From positions 919 through 9,815 of the forward strand of contig MGOK01000007.1 of the NCBI GenBank assembly GCA_001795335.1: 8,897 nt of DNA, given 5' to 3'. The notes under the pieces were generated by a model. It saw nothing but the letters and a program-made list of their open reading frames with translations. It was not told the DNA's origin and did not search any database. Positions 2-8,897 of the stretch are shown here, piece after piece. The stretch's first letter is position 1, and each line of letters starts with the position of its first letter. The stretch is from Chloroflexi bacterium RBG_19FT_COMBO_55_16 (GTDB lineage: Bacteria > Chloroflexota > Anaerolineae > Anaerolineales > UBA4823). A program made the position numbers and the translations under genes.

Positions 2-67
2 GCTCGCAGCGCTGACTTGATCGACCTGATCCGCCATCTGCCGGCCCTCACCGGTGGTGGCACGTAA
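2..67 (+). CDS. C-terminal fragment of an upstream protein, possibly a c-type cytochrome
   Basis: Only the last 21 codons and the TAA stop lie in the window; the gene starts before base 1. The fragment reads ARSADLIDLIRHLPALTGGGT. The pattern D-L-x-D-L-I-x-H-L-P resembles the last helix of class I cytochrome c domains, which commonly end in forms like 'DLADLIAYLRSL'. No haem-binding CXXCH motif is in view, so this assignment rests on one helix and is weak. It is co-directional with the oxidoreductase operon and lies 77 bases upstream of it. A cytochrome c here would make sense as an electron partner of the complex. It could equally be any protein ending in an amphipathic helix. Confidence 0.4.
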   Translation, partial: ARSADLIDLIRHLPALTGGGT

Positions 68-144: not shown

Positions 145-3100
145 ATGCCAAAAATCTCCCGCCGTGAATTCCTCAAACTCTCCGGGGCGACTGCCCTCGG
201 GCTGGCCTTCACCGAGCTCGACCTGCAGCTGCTCGATCCCGTCGATGTCCCGAACCCGCTGGCCTTCTATCCAGAGCGGGACTGGGAGAAAGTTTACCGG
301 GACCAATACCGGTACGATACGTCTTTCACTTATGTGTGTTCGCCGAACGATACGCATGCCTGCCGCCTGCGAGCCTTTGTGCGCAATGGCATCATCCTGC
401 GCTCCGAGACGAACTACGACGTCAGCCGGTACAGCGATCTCTACGGGAATACCGCCACCGCTCACTGGCATCCGCGCGGCTGCAAGAAGGGACAGACTTT
501 CCACCGCCGTATCTACGGCCCACACCGCCTCAAGGGTCCCCTGATGCGCAAAGGCTGGAAGGAGTGGGCCGACGCTGGCTTCCCGGAACTCGACGCGGCC
601 AACAAATCCAAATACAAATTCGATGCGCGTGGGTTGGACGAGCTTCTCCCCGCCTCCTGGGAAGAGGCTTACGACTATATTGCACGCGGGATGATCGCCA
701 TCGCCGAGCGCTACTCCGGCGAAGAGGGCGCTGCGCTGCTGCGCTCCCAGGGCTACCCAGAGGAGATGATCGCCGCCATGGGCGGGGCGGGGACGCGCAC
801 CTTCAAGTGCCGCGGCGGCATGGGATTACTGGGTGTGATCGGCAAGTACGGCATGTACCGTTTCGCCAACACACTGGCCCTGCTCGACGTGCATGTGCGC
901 GGCGTCGAACACGAAGAAGCGCGCGGCGGGCGCACCTGGTCGAACTACACCTGGCATGGCGATCAGGCTCCTGGCATCCCTTTTGTTACTGGCCTGCAGG
1001 CCTCAGATGAAGACTTCAACGACCTGCGTAATTCGCGACTGCACATCCAGTGCGGCAAGAACCTGGTCGAGAACAAGATGCCCGAGTCGCACTTCTTCGT
1101 CGAGGCGATGGAACGCGGCGCCAAGATCGTCACCATCACCCCGGAGTACTCACCGCCGGCGACCAAGTCCGACTACTGGATTCCCATCCGCCCGGCAACC
1201 GATACCGCCCTTTTCCTGGGTATCACCCGCTGGTTGATGGAGGAAGAGAAGTACAACGCCGATTTCGTCAAACGCTTCACCGACTTCCCCCTGCTGGTCC
1301 GTCTGGATAATTTGAAACGCCTGGGCGCTGCCGATGTTTTCCCGAACTACCAGGCCAGCCTCAGCACCGATGGGCCAAGTTTCAAATTGCAGGGCCTTCA
1401 GCCTGGACAATATGAACAGCTTGGCGATTACGTGGTTCAGGATGCCAAGACCGGCGATTTGGCGTCCATCTCCCGCGATGACGTGGGTGCAGCCCTTGAC
1501 ACAAAAGGGATCGATCCCGCCTTAGATTGGTCGGGGTCAGTCACCCTGGTCGATGGAACCCAGGTGGAGGTGATCACGCTCTGGTCAATGTACCGCGAGC
1601 ATTTAAAGGAATACGATCTGGACACAGTTGCCGAGATCACACACGCGCCCAAAGCGATGATCGAGCAGCTTGCCAACGACATTGCCACGCTCAGCCCGGT
1701 CGCCATTCATATCGGCGAGGGGATCAACCACTGGTTCCATGCCACCCTGGCTAACCGGGCGCAGTACCTGCCTTTAATGCTCACCGGCGACATCGGCCGG
1801 CTGGGTGCTGGCCTGTACACCTGGGCAGGCAACTACAAGGCCGCCCTGTTCCAGGCCTCTCCCCTGACCGGCCCGGGGTTCAAAGGCTGGGTGGGCGAGG
1901 ACCCCTTTGAACCTAACCTGGATCCAAACGCGGCGGGCAAGGACATCGTTGCCCACGCCTATACGAAAGACGAGGAACCTGCGTATTGGAACCATTCCGA
2001 ACGCCCGCTGATCGTCGAAACACCCAAGTATGGGCGCAAGGTCTTCACCGGCCAGACTCATATGCCCACTCCAACCAAGGTGCAGTTCTTCACCAATGTC
2101 AACCTGCTAAACAATGCCAAGCACCACTACGAGATGGTTAAGAACGTCAATCCGAACGTCGAGTTGATCATCTCAATGGACATCGAAATGACATCTTCGG
2201 TCGAGTACGCCGATTTCGCCCTGGCAGCCAATACCTGGGCCGAATTCCAGACCCATGAGATCACCGCTTCGTGTTCCAACCCGTTCTTGCAGATCTGGAA
2301 AGGTGGTATCCCACCGCTCTACGACACGCGTGACGATTCACGCATCCTGGCGGAGGTGGCCGTCGCTATCGGAGACCAGCTTGGCGACCAGCGCTTCCGT
2401 GATTATTGGAAATTTCTCCTGGAAGGCAAGCCTGAGATCTATATCCAGCGCCTGCTCGACTCTTCGTTGACCACCAGTGGCTATAAGTTCGAAGAAATCA
2501 TCAGAGGGAAATATGGCGAGCCGGGCGCTGCGCTGATGCTCTTCCGCACCTACCCGCGCATCCCGTATTGGGAACAGGTGCACGACTCTGTGCCCTTCTA
2601 CACCGACACCGGGCGGATGAACGCCTATTGTGACATCCCCGAAGCCATCGAATATGGCGAGAACATCATCAGCCAGCGCGAAGGCCCGGAGGCGACACCT
2701 TATCTACCAAACGTCATCGTCACCTCCAGCCGCTTCGTGCGCCCTGACGATTACGGCATCCGGTTGGATGCCATGGGCTGGGAGGAACGTACGGTACGCA
2801 ATGTAGCCATGACCTGGGAGGAAGTCAAGCAGACGGTCAACCCGCTTTGGGAGTCGGGCTTCCAGTTTTACTGCCTGACGCCCAAGACTCGCCATCGCGT
2901 GCACTCCTCATGGAGCACGGTAGATTGGACGATCATCCTCGACTCGAACTTCGGCGATCCCTACCGCATGGACAAGCGCCTGCCCGGCCCGGGCGACCAC
3001 CAACTGCACATCAACCCACAGGCCGCTAAGGACATGGGCATCGAGGACGGCGATTATGTCTACGTGGACGCCAACCCCGCCGACCGCCCGTACATTGGCT

Positions 3101-3585
3101 GGAAACCCGACGACCCGTTTTATAAAGTTGCCCGGCTGATGCTGCGCGTTAAATATAACCCTGCGTACCCATACAACATCGTCATGCTCAAGCATGGCCC
3201 CTTCATGGCAACTGAGAAATCGGTTCTGGCCCACGAGACGCGGCCCGATGGTTTGGCCAAGTCCGAGGGTACCGGCTACATGGCTAATCTACGCTATGGT
3301 TCGCAGCAATCAATCACCCGTGACTGGTCGATGCCCATGCACCAAACCGATACCCTCTTCCACAAGCAGAAGACCAGTATGCAGTTTATTTTCGGCGGCG
3401 AGGCCGACAACCACGCCTTGAACACCGTCCCCAAGGAGACCCTGGTCAAAATCACTAAGGCTGAAGATGGCGGCCTGAATGGCGTGGGCAAGTGGGAGCC
3501 CATCCAGACCGGCTTTACCCCTGGCCACGAGAGCCAATTTATGGAGAAGTATCTCGGTGGAGAAACGGTGGAAGTGAAGAAGTAA
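145..3585 (+). CDS. nxrA: Molybdopterin oxidoreductase catalytic (alpha) subunit, NxrA/NarG-like, Tat-exported
   Basis: Catalytic subunit of a type II DMSO reductase family enzyme with a bis-MGD molybdenum cofactor and one [4Fe-4S] cluster (FS0), 1146 residues. An exact twin-arginine motif, SRREFLK (residues 5-11), precedes a short hydrophobic stretch, so export is by Tat. No clear AxA cleavage site is visible. FS0 ligands would be C65, D69, C73 and C113 (RGCKKG): the order C-x3-D-x3-C replaces NarG's H-x3-C-x3-C. The Mo-ligating Asp of type II enzymes is most likely D273 in WHGDQAPG. GEGINHWFHATLANR (524-538) and the stretch around TPKTRHRVHSSW (912-923) fit the cofactor-binding domains. The length and the GEGINHWFHAT...AGNYKAALFQ region look like NxrA of Nitrospira/anammox bacteria from memory. 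Whether it works as nitrite oxidase, nitrate reductase or on another substrate cannot be read from sequence. Fold and family are near certain; the Nxr label is probable. Confidence 0.88.
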   Translation: MPKISRREFLKLSGATALGLAFTELDLQLLDPVDVPNPLAFYPERDWEKVYRDQYRYDTSFTYVCSPNDTHACRLRAFVRNGIILRSETNYDVSRYSDLYGNTATAHWHPRGCKKGQTFHRRIYGPHRLKGPLMRKGWKEWADAGFPELDAANKSKYKFDARGLDELLPASWEEAYDYIARGMIAIAERYSGEEGAALLRSQGYPEEMIAAMGGAGTRTFKCRGGMGLLGVIGKYGMYRFANTLALLDVHVRGVEHEEARGGRTWSNYTWHGDQAPGIPFVTGLQASDEDFNDLRNSRLHIQCGKNLVENKMPESHFFVEAMERGAKIVTITPEYSPPATKSDYWIPIRPATDTALFLGITRWLMEEEKYNADFVKRFTDFPLLVRLDNLKRLGAADVFPNYQASLSTDGPSFKLQGLQPGQYEQLGDYVVQDAKTGDLASISRDDVGAALDTKGIDPALDWSGSVTLVDGTQVEVITLWSMYREHLKEYDLDTVAEITHAPKAMIEQLANDIATLSPVAIHIGEGINHWFHATLANRAQYLPLMLTGDIGRLGAGLYTWAGNYKAALFQASPLTGPGFKGWVGEDPFEPNLDPNAAGKDIVAHAYTKDEEPAYWNHSERPLIVETPKYGRKVFTGQTHMPTPTKVQFFTNVNLLNNAKHHYEMVKNVNPNVELIISMDIEMTSSVEYADFALAANTWAEFQTHEITASCSNPFLQIWKGGIPPLYDTRDDSRILAEVAVAIGDQLGDQRFRDYWKFLLEGKPEIYIQRLLDSSLTTSGYKFEEIIRGKYGEPGAALMLFRTYPRIPYWEQVHDSVPFYTDTGRMNAYCDIPEAIEYGENIISQREGPEATPYLPNVIVTSSRFVRPDDYGIRLDAMGWEERTVRNVAMTWEEVKQTVNPLWESGFQFYCLTPKTRHRVHSSWSTVDWTIILDSNFGDPYRMDKRLPGPGDHQLHINPQAAKDMGIEDGDYVYVDANPADRPYIGWKPDDPFYKVARLMLRVKYNPAYPYNIVMLKHGPFMATEKSVLAHETRPDGLAKSEGTGYMANLRYGSQQSITRDWSMPMHQTDTLFHKQKTSMQFIFGGEADNHALNTVPKETLVKITKAEDGGLNGVGKWEPIQTGFTPGHESQFMEKYLGGETVEVKK

Positions 3586-3596
3586 AAGGAGAACTC

Positions 3597-3860
3597 ATGC
3601 CTAAGGACGAATTTGTCGATGAAGATCCCATGCAGCTGGTGGGGATGGTCCTTCCCGGCGAAGAAGGCCAGCTGGAAGCCATGGCCGAGTGCATCGTCGA
3701 AGAGTATGTGCGCATGGGCTGGGACGAGCGGAGGTTAATGACCCTGTTCGTCAATCCGATGTTTATGTCCACCTATCGTATTTACCGGCAAAAAGGCGAA
3801 GAGTATATAGTTGGTTTGATTCGCAGGATTTGCGCTAAATGGATTATCTCAGCCAGTTAG
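3597..3860 (+). CDS. Small acidic hypothetical protein (87 aa) between the alpha and beta genes
   Basis: Function not recognised. The start at 3597 is supported by AAGGAG at 3586-3591, 5 bases upstream, just after the alpha stop codon (11-base gap). A longer reading from 3492 would overlap nxrA and lacks that site. The 87 residues begin MPKDEFVDEDPMQLVG, then GMVLPGEEGQLEAMAECIVE, then EEYVRMGWDERR, then NPMF...YRIYRQKGEEYIVGLI. It has an acidic N-terminal half, a basic C-terminal half, no signal peptide and no membrane segment, and looks helical and cytoplasmic. The motif set (DPM-LVG, AMAE-EEY-RMGW, NP--YR-YR--GEEY) feels like a small conserved family I have seen next to redox enzymes, but I cannot name it. 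Its stop codon overlaps the stop of the convergent HicB-like gene, so the last few residues (KWIISAS) may have been altered by whatever brought that gene in. A role in maturation or assembly of the complex is a guess from position only. Confidence 0.75.
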   Translation: MPKDEFVDEDPMQLVGMVLPGEEGQLEAMAECIVEEYVRMGWDERRLMTLFVNPMFMSTYRIYRQKGEEYIVGLIRRICAKWIISAS

Positions 3861-4135
3861 GCATACGCGTGAACGGCTACGTCCACCTTAAAACGAAAAA
3901 CTTCTGTAACCTTGTCCGGTTCAGTTATGCGAGGATCGGCCTCTACTGGCACCGGGCGCAGATAGGGCAGGCCGTCTTCAATAGCCCCCTCAAGGTGCAA
4001 TGCAGCAGCCTCCAACAGCATTGCCTTTGCTTCCTGTGGGGTTTTACCCACGGAGGCAATATCAAGTTCTGGGCAGAGCGAACTATACCCCTGATCTTCT
4101 CTGATAAGGATCCCGGTAAAGGTAAACATGTTCAT
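3857..4135 (-). CDS. HicB-like (UPF0150-type) protein, orphan, antisense inside the operon
   Basis: A 92-residue protein of the HicB antitoxin-like family. The core is GYSSLCPELDIASVG followed by KTPQEAKAMLLEAAALHLEG (about residues 16-50). This is the usual 'edGgY-a-cPELdi-s-GdT-eEA--nl-eAi-l-le' pattern of the partial RNase H fold. The C-terminal part (residues 60-92) has no ribbon-helix-helix or helix-turn-helix DNA-binding domain that I can see. No HicA-type toxin gene lies next to it: upstream is the nxrB leader and downstream is the convergent small gene. Many such solitary HicB-like proteins exist and few have known roles, so calling it an antitoxin would go too far. Its TAA and the TAG of the small + strand gene share bases (3857-3860), leaving no space for a terminator. 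A likely own promoter lies at 4186-4214. The Shine-Dalgarno is weak (GGGA about 8-10 bases ahead). Confidence 0.75.
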   Translation of the reverse strand: MNMFTFTGILIREDQGYSSLCPELDIASVGKTPQEAKAMLLEAAALHLEGAIEDGLPYLRPVPVEADPRITEPDKVTEVFRFKVDVAVHAYA

Positions 4136-4185
4136 GGTTGTTTCCCAAGGGAGAATGAAATATCAATCACCATTCCAGTTTAATC

Positions 4186-4214
4186 AGTATAACATAGCCG
4201 CTAACCCTTAACAA
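4186..4214 (-). promoter_or_regulatory. Candidate sigma-70-type promoter of the HicB-like gene, overlapping the nxrB leader
   Basis: On the minus strand, TTGTTA (4214-4209) and TATACT (4191-4186) are separated by exactly 17 bases. That is 4 of 6 and 5 of 6 matches to the -35 and -10 consensus. Transcription would begin near 4180, leaving a leader of about 45 bases before the ATG at 4135. The -35 box overlaps the Shine-Dalgarno of nxrB (AAGGAG, 4213-4218). On the + strand the same -10 area reads TATAAC (4188-4193), but no convincing + strand -35 was found. Consensus matching only; the sigma factor preferences of the host are unknown. Confidence 0.45.
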
Positions 4215-4224
4215 GGAGTCTCCT

Positions 4225-5483
<1,259 letters not shown>

Positions 5484-5487
<4 letters not shown>

Positions 5488-6173
5488 GCCAGATCGCTTT
5501 TCGTCGTTCCCAGGTCTATCACTTCTTCGCCGGTACTTTTCTCTATCCCCAGGAGAACTGGCTGGAGGATCTGCCGATCGTGGCAGGTATCTTAGAAGAA
5601 TTAAAAATGTTGCAGGGTTGGGTTTTTGGGCATGCCAGCCAGGATTTCAGCCTTCTCGACTTGCAATCCGAACACCGCCGGACATTTGGCCTGACCGGTT
5701 CTCAGTGCTATGAGACGGAGTTCGGCTTGCCTCATGAGTTTCGCCAGAGCCAGGAATTGGCGGATATCGCTGGGTTCTACCAGGCCTTCGGTTTCAAAGT
5801 GGGTGGCACAGTGCGCGAGCGCCCCGACCACCTGGCAGTTGAACTCGAATTCATGTACGTACTGGCCCTGAAAGAAGCTTACGCTACCACCAATGGGAGC
5901 CAGGAGCAGGTCGAGATCTGCCGCGAGGCGCAGGGCAAGTTCTTAGGAGATCACCTCGGCAGGTGGATCGGCTTGTTTGCCAAATCCCTGTCCCAGTCCT
6001 CCCTGGACGGCCCGTACCTGGCCCTGGCTCAATTTGCCGCAGCTTATGTCGAGGCTGACGCCAAAGGTCTGGGCTTGCGACTGGAACAGCCGCAACTGGC
6101 TGGAATCTCTCCGACGCCCCTTGGCCCTGACCTTTCTTGCGAAGATTGCCTGGTTGCTGAAAACCTGCGCTGA
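5484..6173 (+). CDS. TorD/NarJ-like molybdoenzyme assembly chaperone
   Basis: A 229-residue all-helical cytoplasmic protein of the TorD/DmsD/NarJ family. These bind the apo catalytic subunit, often through its Tat signal, and hold it until the Mo cofactor and partner subunit are in place. The family hallmark E-R-P-D-H-L-A-V-E-L-E-F-M occurs at residues 112-124. The N-terminal part (RRSQVYHFFAGTFLYP) is the usual first helix. The gene starts inside the nxrB stop codon (ATGA), with only a distant AAAGG (5468-5472), so translation is probably coupled to nxrB. That fits a chaperone made in step with its client. The C-terminus has a C219-E-D-C222 pair, which would suit metal binding or a disulfide; its meaning is unknown. 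Length is normal for the family. Family assignment is firm, and the client is inferred from the operon. Confidence 0.88.
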
Positions 6174-6190
6174 CAGATAGGAGGGTACGC

Positions 6191-7225
6191 ATGTTCAATC
6201 GCTCTCACCTTTTACTCGTTTTGGTCCTGATTGCAGCTGCGCTGCTCACATTCTATAAAATCCCGATCGCCAGCTCCCAGGGCCTCACCCTTGTCTCTGC
6301 TGCGGTTGAGGGAGACCTGCCCTTGACCGATCCAGATTCTGCCCTGTGGAATCAGGCTACGGCTGTGGATGTGCCATTGAGCGCTCAAAATGTCACCAAG
6401 CCTTTTCTCCTTGAGTCCAAAATCAAATCTCTCACTGCAAGGACGATCCAAAACGGGTCTCAAATCGCCTTCCTGGTCACGTGGGCAGACGACACTCAGA
6501 ACGATAGCCTGGTGCGCGTACAGGATTTTCGCGACTCAGTGGCGCTCCAGTTCCCTCTGGCCGAAGGGCAGCCCTTTTTCTGCATGGGCCAGCAGGGAGG
6601 CAATGTCAACCTCTGGCTTTGGAAGGCCGATTGGCAAGCGGATATCAACGCTCGCCAGGATATGGACACGCAATACTCGAACATGTATGTCGATCAGTAT
6701 CCCTTTGCCGATCCTGCCAAAGGTATCCAGGCTGGTGTTGCAGATTACACCGACCCAAACTATGTCCCCGCCATGGCATCTGGAAATCTATTTGCCAGCC
6801 CGCTGCATGCCTCCCCGATCGAGGACTTGATCGCCGGTGGTTTTGGATCGCTGACTGCTCAGGCTGCAGACAACCAAAACGTGCAGGGCTTTGGCGCCTG
6901 GGAGGCTGGTAAGTGGCGCGTGATTTTCAGCCGCGACCTGGCTTCCTCCGAGACGGATGACGTAACCTTTGTCCCTGGCAAGACTTACTCCGTGGCTTTT
7001 GCGGTTTGGGACGGCGCTAACGGCGAACGCAATGGGCAGAAGTCCACCTCCCAATGGGTTAATCTTCAATTTGGTAGCGCCCCCCAACCTGTTGGGGTCA
7101 AGGAGCAGGTCGAACCTCAGAAGCCCTGGTGGCAGACCACTCAAGTGATCACATTGTTCATGTTCGGAGTCCTGGCAGTGCTGTTCATCGTGGGCGCTTT
7201 TATCTATTCTCGCCTGCCTGAGTAA
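6191..7225 (+). CDS. Haem b gamma subunit (ethylbenzene dehydrogenase-like), signal peptide plus C-terminal anchor
   Basis: Likely third subunit of the complex (NxrC/EbdC/DdhC type), 344 residues, binding one haem b outside the cytoplasmic membrane. It has a Sec-type signal at residues 1-30 (hydrophobic core LLLVLVLIAAALL). The middle 40-295 is the ethylbenzene dehydrogenase-like haem domain. The known axial ligands of EbdC are a Met and a Lys; the equivalents here are probably M132 (PFFCMGQ, before NVNLWLWKADW) and K241 (EAGKWRVIFSRDL). Residues 319-340 form one transmembrane helix ending in RLPE, so the body faces outward and the complex is tethered to the membrane. EbdC and DdhC themselves are soluble. 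AGGAGG at 6179-6184, 6 bases ahead of the ATG, supports the start. Spacing to the chaperone is 17 bases. Function by family is good; the name NxrC is inferred from the operon. Confidence 0.85.
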   Translation: MFNRSHLLLVLVLIAAALLTFYKIPIASSQGLTLVSAAVEGDLPLTDPDSALWNQATAVDVPLSAQNVTKPFLLESKIKSLTARTIQNGSQIAFLVTWADDTQNDSLVRVQDFRDSVALQFPLAEGQPFFCMGQQGGNVNLWLWKADWQADINARQDMDTQYSNMYVDQYPFADPAKGIQAGVADYTDPNYVPAMASGNLFASPLHASPIEDLIAGGFGSLTAQAADNQNVQGFGAWEAGKWRVIFSRDLASSETDDVTFVPGKTYSVAFAVWDGANGERNGQKSTSQWVNLQFGSAPQPVGVKEQVEPQKPWWQTTQVITLFMFGVLAVLFIVGAFIYSRLPE

Positions 7226-7228
7226 ACC

Positions 7229-8185
7229 ATGAAGCGTTATCCAGTTTTTCTCTCCTGGCTAGTCGGGTCAGCCCTGGTGGATTGGCTGGTCACCCGCACC
7301 CTGGCGCGCTCGGCAATTTTCATGCCTAAATCGCCGCCGGTGATCCTCGTCTACCAGGGATTAGGCCTGCTCGGACAGCTGGCCGCTACAGTTACCGGTC
7401 TGCTTGTCCTGGCCTTTTTGGGTTGGATAGCCTGGCGGGGTTTACGCATGGGCGGCGAGGTCGTGTTGCCCACCGCTTTTGCCAGCTTGGTGGTCCTCAG
7501 CCTCATTTTCCTTGTATTTCCCCCCTCCGGCTGGTTGGCGGTGAGTTACCACATGATCTTAGTGGCAGTCATTGTATTGGTAGGTTGGCGGGCATTTAGC
7601 TGGGTGGATTCGAATTCAAAGAAGACCGCCAGCTTGCTTGTGGCGCTCACCCTCCTGGTCAGTGAACTTTACCAGGTGATCCCGGCGCTCTATGAAGCCT
7701 TAAGGTTACCTGGCCCGACTTTCTTTTCCCTGATCCTATTCAACGCCGGCGAACTGTTGTTGCTGCTCAGTACGATCGCCCTGTGGTGGGCGCATGGGCG
7801 TCCTGCTGCATGGCGAGTCTGGTTAGTTGCCAGTCTCCCGGCGCTCGCCTTTATCGCCATGCGGCTCGCCAATCCTGCCATGACTGGTATCATCGCCATT
7901 TGGTCAACAGGCTTGACTCTCTACCTACCCTGGCCGGGCTACGCTCTCGGCCTGTGGCTGACAGCCGTGACTGTCCTCAAATCACTAAAACAGAGCGACC
8001 TGGCCGCTTGGGTGATCCTCTTGCTGGCAGCAGGTGGGTATGCCCCCCAGCTCAGCACGCACGCCTTCCTGGGCATTGTCGCTCTCTGGCTGCTTCTGCC
8101 TGCTGCGCCGCAGCCTGCTTTGGATCGTCCGGTTTATCTTGAAAGCGTTCCCACCTCGAATGACCTGGTGTTAGAGGAGCTATGA
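7229..8185 (+). CDS. Polytopic membrane protein of unknown function
   Basis: I do not recognise a family. The 318 residues form about nine or ten hydrophobic segments, roughly at 6-30, 40-66, 77-97, 101-120, 133-152, 165-188, 194-211, 217-250 (probably two) and 258-291, with a short soluble tail rich in acidic residues (EEL end). Histidines are few: H108 (SYHM) and H189 (WAHG) in or near membrane segments, and H278 (STHAF). Two or more of these could ligate a haem b or take part in quinone contact, but no known pattern (NarI, NrfD, cytochrome b561) is seen. It starts 3 bases after the gamma stop with no Shine-Dalgarno, so translation should be coupled to gamma. That tight link suggests a role with the oxidoreductase, such as quinone/cytochrome link, anchor or transport of substrate. 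It is the last intact gene of the operon in this window. Confidence 0.8.
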   Translation: MKRYPVFLSWLVGSALVDWLVTRTLARSAIFMPKSPPVILVYQGLGLLGQLAATVTGLLVLAFLGWIAWRGLRMGGEVVLPTAFASLVVLSLIFLVFPPSGWLAVSYHMILVAVIVLVGWRAFSWVDSNSKKTASLLVALTLLVSELYQVIPALYEALRLPGPTFFSLILFNAGELLLLLSTIALWWAHGRPAAWRVWLVASLPALAFIAMRLANPAMTGIIAIWSTGLTLYLPWPGYALGLWLTAVTVLKSLKQSDLAAWVILLLAAGGYAPQLSTHAFLGIVALWLLLPAAPQPALDRPVYLESVPTSNDLVLEEL

Positions 8186-8234: not shown

Positions 8235-8897
8235 CTACGGGCATCTCTGATCCCGAATGAGGAAATGCGTTTCCGGTTGGCCTCCCGAGGCTGGGACGGA
8301 AGATAGGATGTCCAGGCCTCCGTCGCCGTCGAGATCGACCAGGGAGAACAGGTTAGCCTGGATGTTGACTCCGAGCGGGGCCGTTGAGAATCGGCCTGTG
8401 CCATTGTTGAGCAACAAGAGGGGCTGCTCGCCGCTGCCAGGTACATGCTTGGTAAGTATGTCTGGACTTCCGTTTCCATCGAAGTCAACAACTTCAAGTT
8501 CTTTGATCCATGTGCCTTGCGGTTCGAAACCTTCGAGGCGGGTGGTAGTCTCGTCCGCAAAGGTCGCGTCCCCTTGATTGACCAGCACCTGTAAATACCT
8601 GTTCTGGTAATCTGCCTGCGTGAAGGCCATCACCAGGTCTATATAACCGTCGCCATTGAGTTCAACAGGCTCAATAACCAGGGCTATGTCGGTTGCAGCG
8701 TAGGGCTTGATGGGGATCGCGTTTGCTTTGAGAGAGAAGTGCCCCAAACCGTCGTTGAGCAGGACGAGCGAAGCGGGTGTGTGATCATCGGCTCCCAGGA
8801 TCAGATCGGGTGCCCTGTCGTTGTTCACGTCCGCGAAAACGCTGGCTGTGAAACGGCTGGTGTTCAAATTAGAAACGCTATCGGGGAGTAATCCGCT
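8235..8897 (-). CDS. FG-GAP/VCBS-repeat protein, C-terminal part only
   Basis: The reading frame is open to the window edge, so the N-terminus lies beyond base 8897; 220 residues are seen. No convincing start exists inside (the candidate at 8865-8867 is TTG with no ribosome site, and the frame continues upstream of it). Four FG-GAP/VCBS units are visible, each with a calcium-loop: DVNNDRAPD (23-31 counted from the window edge), ELNGDGYID (79-87), DFDGNGSPD (138-146) and DLDGDGGLD (188-196), spaced 50-59 residues. Each of the first three is followed by a strand like LVLLNDGLGHF or LLLLNNGTGRF. Such repeats build beta-propeller blades in secreted or surface proteins that bind calcium and often serve adhesion. 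After the fourth loop the expected '-LLN-G-G-F' strand is cut to THFLIRDQRCP and stop, so the last blade looks incomplete. It is convergent with the operon and probably unrelated to it. Confidence 0.8.
   Translation of the reverse strand, partial: SGLLPDSVSNLNTSRFTASVFADVNNDRAPDLILGADDHTPASLVLLNDGLGHFSLKANAIPIKPYAATDIALVIEPVELNGDGYIDLVMAFTQADYQNRYLQVLVNQGDATFADETTTRLEGFEPQGTWIKELEVVDFDGNGSPDILTKHVPGSGEQPLLLLNNGTGRFSTAPLGVNIQANLFSLVDLDGDGGLDILSSVPASGGQPETHFLIRDQRCP

Follow-up and report, generated by a model that had tools for sequence, protein, structure and literature searches.

An Anaerolineae branch of the nitrite oxidoreductase family that likely reduces nitrate, with a small gene between its alpha and beta subunits

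We analysed a stretch of 8,897 nucleotides (hereafter the window) from contig MGOK01000007.1 of Chloroflexi bacterium RBG_19FT_COMBO_55_16. It holds an operon of five same-strand genes, encoding an alpha subunit, a small protein that we call OrfS (gene orfS), a beta subunit, a chaperone and a gamma subunit, followed 3 bases beyond gamma by a gene for a membrane protein. The operon likely encodes a membrane-anchored, outward-facing molybdenum (Mo) nitrate/nitrite oxidoreductase of Anaerolineae, which belongs to the nitrite oxidoreductase (NXR) branch of the type II dimethyl sulfoxide (DMSO) reductases and would work as a nitrate reductase. This enzyme family is already known in outline in Chloroflexota; the present additions are the resolution of an Anaerolineae branch, the set of genes that it carries and orfS.

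As for the alpha subunit, comparison with Protein Data Bank (PDB) sequences places it close to NxrA of Kuenenia stuttgartiensis (7b04 chain B), with which it shares 65% identity over its full length (1776 bits). Scores against other groups are far lower, at 188 bits for perchlorate reductase (PcrA), 154 for ethylbenzene dehydrogenase (EbdA) and at most 128 for NarG. In the Kuenenia enzyme, roles have been assigned to an Asp that binds Mo, an Asn at the substrate and the Asp and Cys ligands of iron–sulfur (FeS) cluster FS0 (PMC8387239). Residues C65, N68, D69 and D273 of the window alpha correspond to Kuenenia C67, N70, D71 and D275, and C73 and C113 are kept as well. Alpha therefore has the features of the branch uniting NXR and periplasmic nitrate reductase (NAR), namely the Mo Asp (D273), the substrate Asn (N68) and a three-Cys, one-Asp FS0 (C65, D69, C73 and C113). 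Among 90 alphas (89 extracted plus the window), D273 is kept in all, and position 69 is Asp in 82, Cys in seven and a gap in one. The Cys replacement is found in six of 80 fetched loci (L044, L047, L050, L054, L070 and L073), so the FS0 Asp ligand is not universal in the NXR/NAR branch. Alpha also matches PF00384 (93 bits), and its N-terminus, MPKISRREFLKLSGA, contains the twin-arginine translocation (Tat) motif SRREFLK at residues 5–11. An earlier, sequence-only reading of this DNA had pointed to that motif, and it is directly visible even though both Tat models score slightly under their cut-offs (PF10518, 19.9 versus 22.7 bits; TIGR01409, 15.8 versus 16.7 bits).

The other subunits point to the same family. 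Beta matches 7b04 chain A over its full length with 614 bits, as against 204 for perchlorate reductase, 202 for ethylbenzene dehydrogenase and 174 for NarG. It has the cysteines that bind the FeS clusters and contains, letter for letter, the three blocks that had first drawn attention to it: MPEVYNWQLGR, FSKGQEYMWWNN and PMETRCMA. Gamma carries the haem b domain of ethylbenzene dehydrogenase (PF09459, 128 bits) and matches NxrC (7b04 chain C) over residues 55–292 with 124 bits, versus 73 for EbdC. Its M132 and K284 align with the Kuenenia haem ligands M155 and K305; of 70 rows, 69 and 67, respectively, have these residues, with gaps in the remainder. The hydropathy of its C-terminus reaches 2.77 (19-residue mean), within the range of 2.25–3.14 over the 16 Anaerolineae-type gammas scored (defined below). 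The chaperone matches PF02613 (63 bits) and, under the cut-off of 152, TIGR03482 (88 bits). Alpha, beta and gamma are thus homologous to 7b04 over most of their length, and chance is excluded as the cause of these sequence matches. The scores (1776, 614 and 124 bits) uphold the earlier proposal of a complex of the NXR/periplasmic-NAR family, its export being predicted.

To place the enzyme, we collected its relatives. Among 7996 candidates, 2203 alpha homologues were found at E up to 1e-20; the best 120 of these are all at least 81% identical, and the minority of the best 120 with a named organism are Anaerolineales, Anaerolineae, Chloroflexi/Chloroflexota or Thermoflexales. We studied the best 80 of 473 relatives from a genome scan, ranked by similarity to the window, a choice that samples the family unevenly. 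Twenty-two of these loci have alphas of 77–85% identity and are termed Anaerolineae-type here, their records reading Chloroflexi, Chloroflexota, Anaerolineae, Anaerolineales, Anaerolinea, Thermoflexales, Caldilineaceae, Caldilineales or Ardenticatenaceae; isolate names such as CFX1 and CFX8 suggest that some relatives may be reactor MAGs. The remainder, at 65–73%, include NC10, Acidobacteria, Omnitrophota, Elusimicrobia and Planctomycetota (eight anammox-type loci among them), as well as Rokubacteria, Latescibacterota, Poribacteria, other Chloroflexota and more. Since the family occurs in NC10, Omnitrophota, Planctomycetota, Rokubacteria and other phyla, Nitrospira and anammox bacteria are merely two of its branches. 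Several Anaerolineae-type genomes, including Caldilineales and Ardenticatenaceae, fall in the class of the Anaerolineales metagenome-assembled genome (MAG) L023, in which 17 of 396 genomes have this alpha type (at least 77% identity) and four more have only a relative of 40–44%. Across the phylum, an alpha match at E up to 1e-100 is present in 18 of 400 genomes, ten at 58% or more and eight with a 42–46% type only; one of the ten, G378, has both types, on different contigs.

Phylogenetic trees, which the sequence-only reading had suggested as a check, resolve an Anaerolineae clade, their rows being drawn from the NXR branch and a sister group of 40–46% identity. The beta tree (100 rows) puts the window in an 18-row Anaerolineae-type clade with a support of 99 in the Shimodaira–Hasegawa-like approximate likelihood ratio test (SH-aLRT). 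Three CSP1-4-type Chloroflexota are sister to it (SH-aLRT 97), the Nitrospira-like rows P0121, P0122 and P0124 cluster with NC10 CSP1-5, and anammox rows lie elsewhere. We take P0121 to be Nitrospira-like because of a 97% match to a sequence taken to be a Nitrospira NxrB. With 95 rows, none of them from Nitrospira, the alpha tree has a 28-row Anaerolineae-type clade (SH-aLRT 100), again with CSP1-4 as sister (SH-aLRT 98) and anammox apart. Grouping with the NxrA and NxrB of Brocadiales, expected of an anammox NXR, was seen in neither tree, and the beta tree, where this could be compared, shows no grouping with Nitrospira-like NxrB. Moreover, residue 45 of beta is Cys, whereas P0121, P0122 and P0124 have the Asp at FeS cluster IV that marks Nitrospira-type NXR, described as Asp45 in NxrB of N. 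defluvii (PMC6050957). Consequently, with its own clade in both trees and Cys45 in beta, the window enzyme is, judged by its sequence, a separate Chloroflexota branch of the NXR family, neither Nitrospira-type nor anammox-type, and the "Nitrospira/anammox-like" affiliation first given to it has to be abandoned. The same reading had considered a lateral member of the lineage; since the gene is common to many Anaerolineae within its clade, this is not the simplest reading for the contig, whose placement in Anaerolineae (Chloroflexota) is supported by the names of homologues and by both trees. Elsewhere in the alpha tree, the alpha of L065, on a contig of a "Pseudomonadales" MAG, groups with a Phycisphaerae alpha (SH-aLRT 100), possibly owing to a binning error.

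Comparison with known systems sharpens this placement. The complex shares with Kuenenia NXR-ABC (7b04) the Mo Asp, the substrate Asn, the three-Cys, one-Asp FS0 and the Met/Lys haem ligands. However, its gamma has a C-terminal hydrophobic helix that is seen in none of the three anammox gammas scored (L057, L066 and L072), and the window has an orfS, which all eight anammox genomes searched lack. With Nitrospira-type NxrABC it shares the beta N-terminus and cluster blocks and, by prediction, the export layout of N. defluvii, where alpha is Tat-exported, beta unsignalled and gamma membrane-integral (PMC3578206); Cys45 and the tree position of beta, the one subunit compared, set it apart. The CSP1-4-type Chloroflexota (L029, L033 and L040), sister in both trees, have orfS and the same order of alpha, orfS, beta and chaperone, but an alpha of about 67–69% identity and no detected 318-residue membrane protein, the sequence of L033 and L040 stopping early. 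A 2026 study took genes of this kind from CSP1-4 lineages of sediments to mean nitrate respiration (PMC13212565). Caldilinea aerophila, compared by description, is another member of Chloroflexota with this gene family, noted in 2013 to have an NxrB-like protein, a chaperone and NxrC but no NxrA (PMC3578206), in contrast to the complete set in the window. In another study, the NxrA of a new phylum was compared with hot-spring Chloroflexota nitrite oxidisers and Nitrotoga, apart from the Nitrospira/Nitrospina/anammox clade (PMC11009272). As for the 40–46% sister group (L081, L083–L087 and the second copy of L020), it has a type II alpha of 1111–1166 residues and a beta, but forms a separate clade (SH-aLRT 100), its beta is shorter (375–380 residues) and orfS was absent from the four genomes searched that showed this type only. 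It may be the Nitrotoga/Hydrogenobacter group, a guess from the literature. The NC10 bacterium CSP1-5 (L020) carries two alpha–beta–gamma sets on one stretch, one of the 73% branch type and one of the 43% sister-group type.

The direction of the reaction had been left open by the sequence-only reading, and it is by context only that nitrate reduction is favoured. We scored neighbours in the 22 Anaerolineae-type loci within fetched flanks of at most 10 kb, which end early in many loci, so the kinase and regulator counts are lower bounds. In L001, a sensor kinase has its best NCBIfam matches in NarQ (207 bits) and NarX (139 bits) and a regulator in NarL (175 bits), all under equivalog cut-offs. 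By tblastn, a NarX/NarQ-like kinase is found in 12 of the 22 loci (at least 224 bits; a 66-bit match in L002 was not counted) and a NarL-like regulator in ten (at least 200 bits; L002, 108 bits). Among the 58 other loci, L034 and L051 alone match, with 54 and 74 bits for the kinase and 135 and 136 bits for the regulator, and tblastn found neither gene in seven further fetched stretches, all with short flanks. A P-box for nitrate binding, INLAGRQRM or a near variant, is present in 11 of the 13 proteins of the kinase cluster, the others being cut at a contig end (L010) or another kinase (L002). A report giving the P-box consensus also describes a group of these sensors in Chloroflexi, many of them found in anammox communities (PMC8199190). 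Furthermore, a cytochrome cd1-type gene, in one case truncated where the contig stops, lies shortly downstream in five of the 22 loci. These five (L015, L016, L017, L027 and L059) belong to one sub-clade; the genes combine cytochrome c and D1 domains (262 bits in L015), with NirS and NirN not distinguished. An FmdE-domain protein is encoded near the operon in nine loci (L004, L008, L014, L015, L016, L017, L018, L027 and L059), the one in L017 having a weak zinc-finger-like match at its tail.

The host genomes, i.e., the 22 Anaerolineae-type MAGs, of unstated completeness, contain two of the kinds of gene that the earlier reading had proposed to look for, terminal oxidases (22/22) and, by strong family matches, nitrite reductases (19/22). 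The NrfA family is present in 17, in 16 of them at 235 bits or more; a strong cd1 match occurs in seven, or 13 above the cut-off if short pieces are included; and NirK is above its cut-off in six, weaker multicopper matches in 15 more being uncounted. At least one strong match to a nitrite-reductase family is thus present in all but G007, G010 and G011. Within the class of L023, genomes with this alpha have NrfA in 10 of 17 cases, those with the 40–44% type in four of four and those with neither in 88 of 375 (10/17 versus 88/375, Fisher p 0.0025, ignoring kinship and genome completeness). In anammox granules, transcripts of narGHIJ were reported for Anaerolineae MAGs and of nrfHA for one of them, the authors regarding the Nar as cytoplasmic (PMC5460018); it may be an enzyme other than that of the window. 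The NarX/NarL-type neighbours and the nitrite-reductase families of the hosts together favour nitrate reduction.

Several observations weigh against this direction. NarX-type sensors respond to nitrite too, the window itself has neither a NarX nor a NarL gene, these being found in relatives, and the operon has no obvious gene for a quinol-oxidising haem protein. NrfA is common in the class regardless of this alpha (102 of 396 genomes) and, at the same threshold, missing from seven of the 17 alpha-bearing ones, and three of the 16 strong NrfA matches contain one internal stop codon. Because PF02335 and PF02239 describe whole families, proteins other than genuine NrfA or NirS may be among the matches. 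All 22 hosts have a COX1-family oxidase and ten have RuBisCO (eight over 350 bits, form unassigned), which keeps nitrite oxidation open. Finally, Kuenenia NXR, the closest solved relative, works both ways and oxidises nitrite in vivo (PMC8387239).

An alternative is a reversible enzyme in mixotrophs, reducing nitrate without oxygen and oxidising nitrite with it. We consider this unlikely, even though Kuenenia NXR catalyses both directions and the hosts have oxidases as well as nitrite-reductase families, because a NarX/NarL-type switch suggests a single main condition. It seems distinctly unlikely that the enzyme is a true nitrite oxidoreductase, oxidising nitrite outside the cell and passing electrons via gamma to cytochrome c oxidase, with RuBisCO fixing CO2 in some hosts. 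The FS0 and Mo ligands shared with Kuenenia, together with the oxidases and RuBisCO, speak for it, but most hosts also have nitrite-reductase families and about half of the loci have a nitrate/nitrite sensor pair nearby. In addition, Kuenenia, Nitrospira and Nitrospina have in common mono- and dihaem cytochromes c, cupredoxins, an alternative NxrC and a bd-like oxidase, a set that clusters with nxr in Kuenenia (PMC3578206). Apart from cd1, this set was unseen among the gene groups present in at least three of the 22 loci, a weak argument because the set need not cluster and neither models nor a genome-wide search were applied; open reading frames (ORFs) with at least two CXXCH motifs occur in two of the 22 loci. 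Another substrate (perchlorate, chlorate, selenate, a hydrocarbon or dimethyl sulfide), as in other clades of type II DMSO reductases, is very improbable. Matches to the subfamily models TIGR03479, TIGR03478, TIGR03482 and TIGR03477, all below cut-off, speak for it, but TIGR03479 reaches only 333 of the 985 bits required and the PcrA and EbdA scores given above are dwarfed by that of NxrA. The perchlorate reductase and hydrocarbon hydroxylase clades, which the earlier reading had named as refuting it, are thereby rejected on scores, SerA, ClrA and DdhA being covered by TIGR03479 only; the trees, which hold only the NXR branch and its sister group, leave this alternative untouched.

Established knowledge of the family suggests how the complex would be assembled and exported. 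The chaperone would load the Mo cofactor into alpha, which would then carry beta outward via the Tat pathway. Gamma would be exported by Sec and dock outside, where its own helix, possibly together with the 318-residue membrane protein, would keep it in place. If the enzyme is a nitrate reductase, as we favour, electrons would flow from the respiratory chain inward through the haem b of gamma and the FeS clusters of beta to Mo, and nitrate would be reduced to nitrite outside the cell under the control of a NarX/NarL-type two-component system, these being the weakest steps of the model. The nitrite might then serve as substrate for the cell's own NrfA, cytochrome cd1 or NirK.

Lying between alpha and beta, orfS is a conserved neighbour of alpha. 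Using the window sequence alone, tblastn finds it in 68 of the 72 non-anammox loci among the best 80, and a profile finds it in 71, in L071 as a piece truncated by the contig edge (E 2e-4). Because 46 of the loci went into the profile, its count is in part built in; the tblastn count is free of this effect. The one locus without it is L056, in whose whole genome orfS was not found either. It is absent from all eight anammox loci and all eight anammox genomes searched, and from the four searched genomes showing only the 40–46% alpha type; in G378, which has both types, orfS adjoins the 58% alpha. In three loci (L034, L038 and L051), it lies upstream rather than downstream of alpha. Nucleotide differences in orfS between the window and its relatives concentrate at third codon positions (against L002, for example, 21, 16 and 52 at positions 1, 2 and 3, respectively), which indicates a protein under selection. 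A total of 902 homologues were found at E up to 1e-5; the named ones among the 120 listed are hypothetical proteins, except for two with out-of-place enzyme names and one with a garbled label. The predicted model is all-helical (predicted local distance difference test (pLDDT) score of 86.9), and searches of Pfam, NCBIfam and the PDB gave no convincing match. OrfS probably helps the assembly or stability of alpha and beta, and we propose that it is an assembly factor or small subunit. More tentatively, and with some reservation, we suggest that it could be a hitherto overlooked component that nearly all members of the NXR/periplasmic-NAR branch share except those of anammox bacteria, travelling with alpha across phyla and lost or replaced in anammox. 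A narrow literature search for a gene between nxrA and nxrB turned up only nxrX, named with nxrA, which is thin ground for novelty; we take nxrX to be the isomerase-like gene of Nitrobacter.

The 318-residue membrane protein, in contrast to orfS, is specific to the Anaerolineae-type loci. It is encoded after gamma in all 16 of those whose contig reaches past gamma and in none of the 58 others. Its predicted model is confident (pLDDT 88.8), and across 14 sequences W19, R23, R27, P33, K34 and E175 are invariant, with no invariant His among them; no PDB match was found at E up to 0.001. Since a confident model comes with neither an invariant His nor a PDB match, anchoring or docking is likelier than electron transfer via haem, and we propose that this protein is a membrane anchor or partner of the complex.

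The full gene layout is given in Table 1. The alpha, beta, chaperone and haem b gamma genes, which the sequence-only reading had found side by side (145..7225), are all intact; orfS, the HicB-like ORF, the 318-residue membrane protein and the upstream tail had been overlooked. As the membrane-protein gene directly follows gamma, the gene run reaches position 8185 rather than 7225. The start of the chaperone gene overlaps the end of beta by 4 bases, and ribosome-binding-type sequences can be read by eye upstream of orfS (AAGGAG), beta (AAGGAG) and gamma (AGGAGG). The tail at the left edge resembles those of receiver-like proteins encoded upstream of alpha in relatives, a place where 18 of the 22 Anaerolineae-type loci have such a protein (16 by tblastn; L002 and L023 by clustering). 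Its identity is probable, being judged by eye from just 21 residues, and "receiver-like" is itself a reading of sequence, the L001 copy having no Pfam match. Homologues of the HicB-like ORF, 68–77% identical to the window copy, occupy the same place and strand in six of the 22 loci (L010, L013, L016, L018, L027 and L059).

Table 1. Features of the window, with positions counted from its first nucleotide.
Feature	Position	Strand	Basis or remark
C-terminus of a receiver-like protein, probable	2..67	+	Frame +2 reads ARSADLIDLIRHLPALTGGGT then stop
Alpha subunit, Mo-bis-molybdopterin guanine dinucleotide (Mo-bis-MGD), NxrA/NarG-type, Tat motif, 1146 residues, ATG start	145..3585	+	
orfS, 87 residues, predicted all-helical	3597..3860	+	Profile, tblastn, codon-position bias
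HicB-like antitoxin-type ORF, antisense, filling the orfS–beta gap	3857..4135	-	PF15919, 19 bits (cut-off 27)
Beta subunit, NxrB-type FeS protein, 420 residues, Cys45	4225..5487	+	614 bits to 7b04 chain A
NarJ/TorD-type chaperone, 229 residues	5484..6173	+	PF02613, 63 bits
Gamma subunit, haem b, 344 residues, N-terminal hydrophobic stretch and C-terminal hydrophobic (membrane) helix	6191..7225	+	PF09459, 128 bits
Multi-helix membrane protein, 318 residues	7229..8185	+	Specific to Anaerolineae-type loci
FG-GAP-type repeat protein, truncated at the right edge of the window, gene convergent with the operon	8235..8897	-	

Genes of the NXR family are often taken as evidence of nitrite oxidation. 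An NXR-type cluster was described in 2016 by Speth and colleagues in an Armatimonadetes MAG judged unlikely to be a chemolithoautotrophic nitrite oxidiser (PMC4821891), and for Chloroflexi living in anammox reactors, nar and nrf genes have been reported as nitrate reduction (PMC9942424, PMC5460018). Here, a full NXR set is accompanied by nitrate sensors near about half of the loci and by nitrite-reductase families in most hosts. Genes called "nxr" in metagenomes of Chloroflexota may therefore stand for nitrate respiration; in the Anaerolineae branch, they probably do. As for orfS, anammox metalloproteins are described as not producible heterologously, and the NXR of nitrite oxidisers as only partly purified (PMC8387239). 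If OrfS is indeed a near-universal component of these enzymes outside anammox bacteria, it may be a part missing from attempts at making them in foreign hosts. As a candidate for an absent component of NXR, it can be put to the test.

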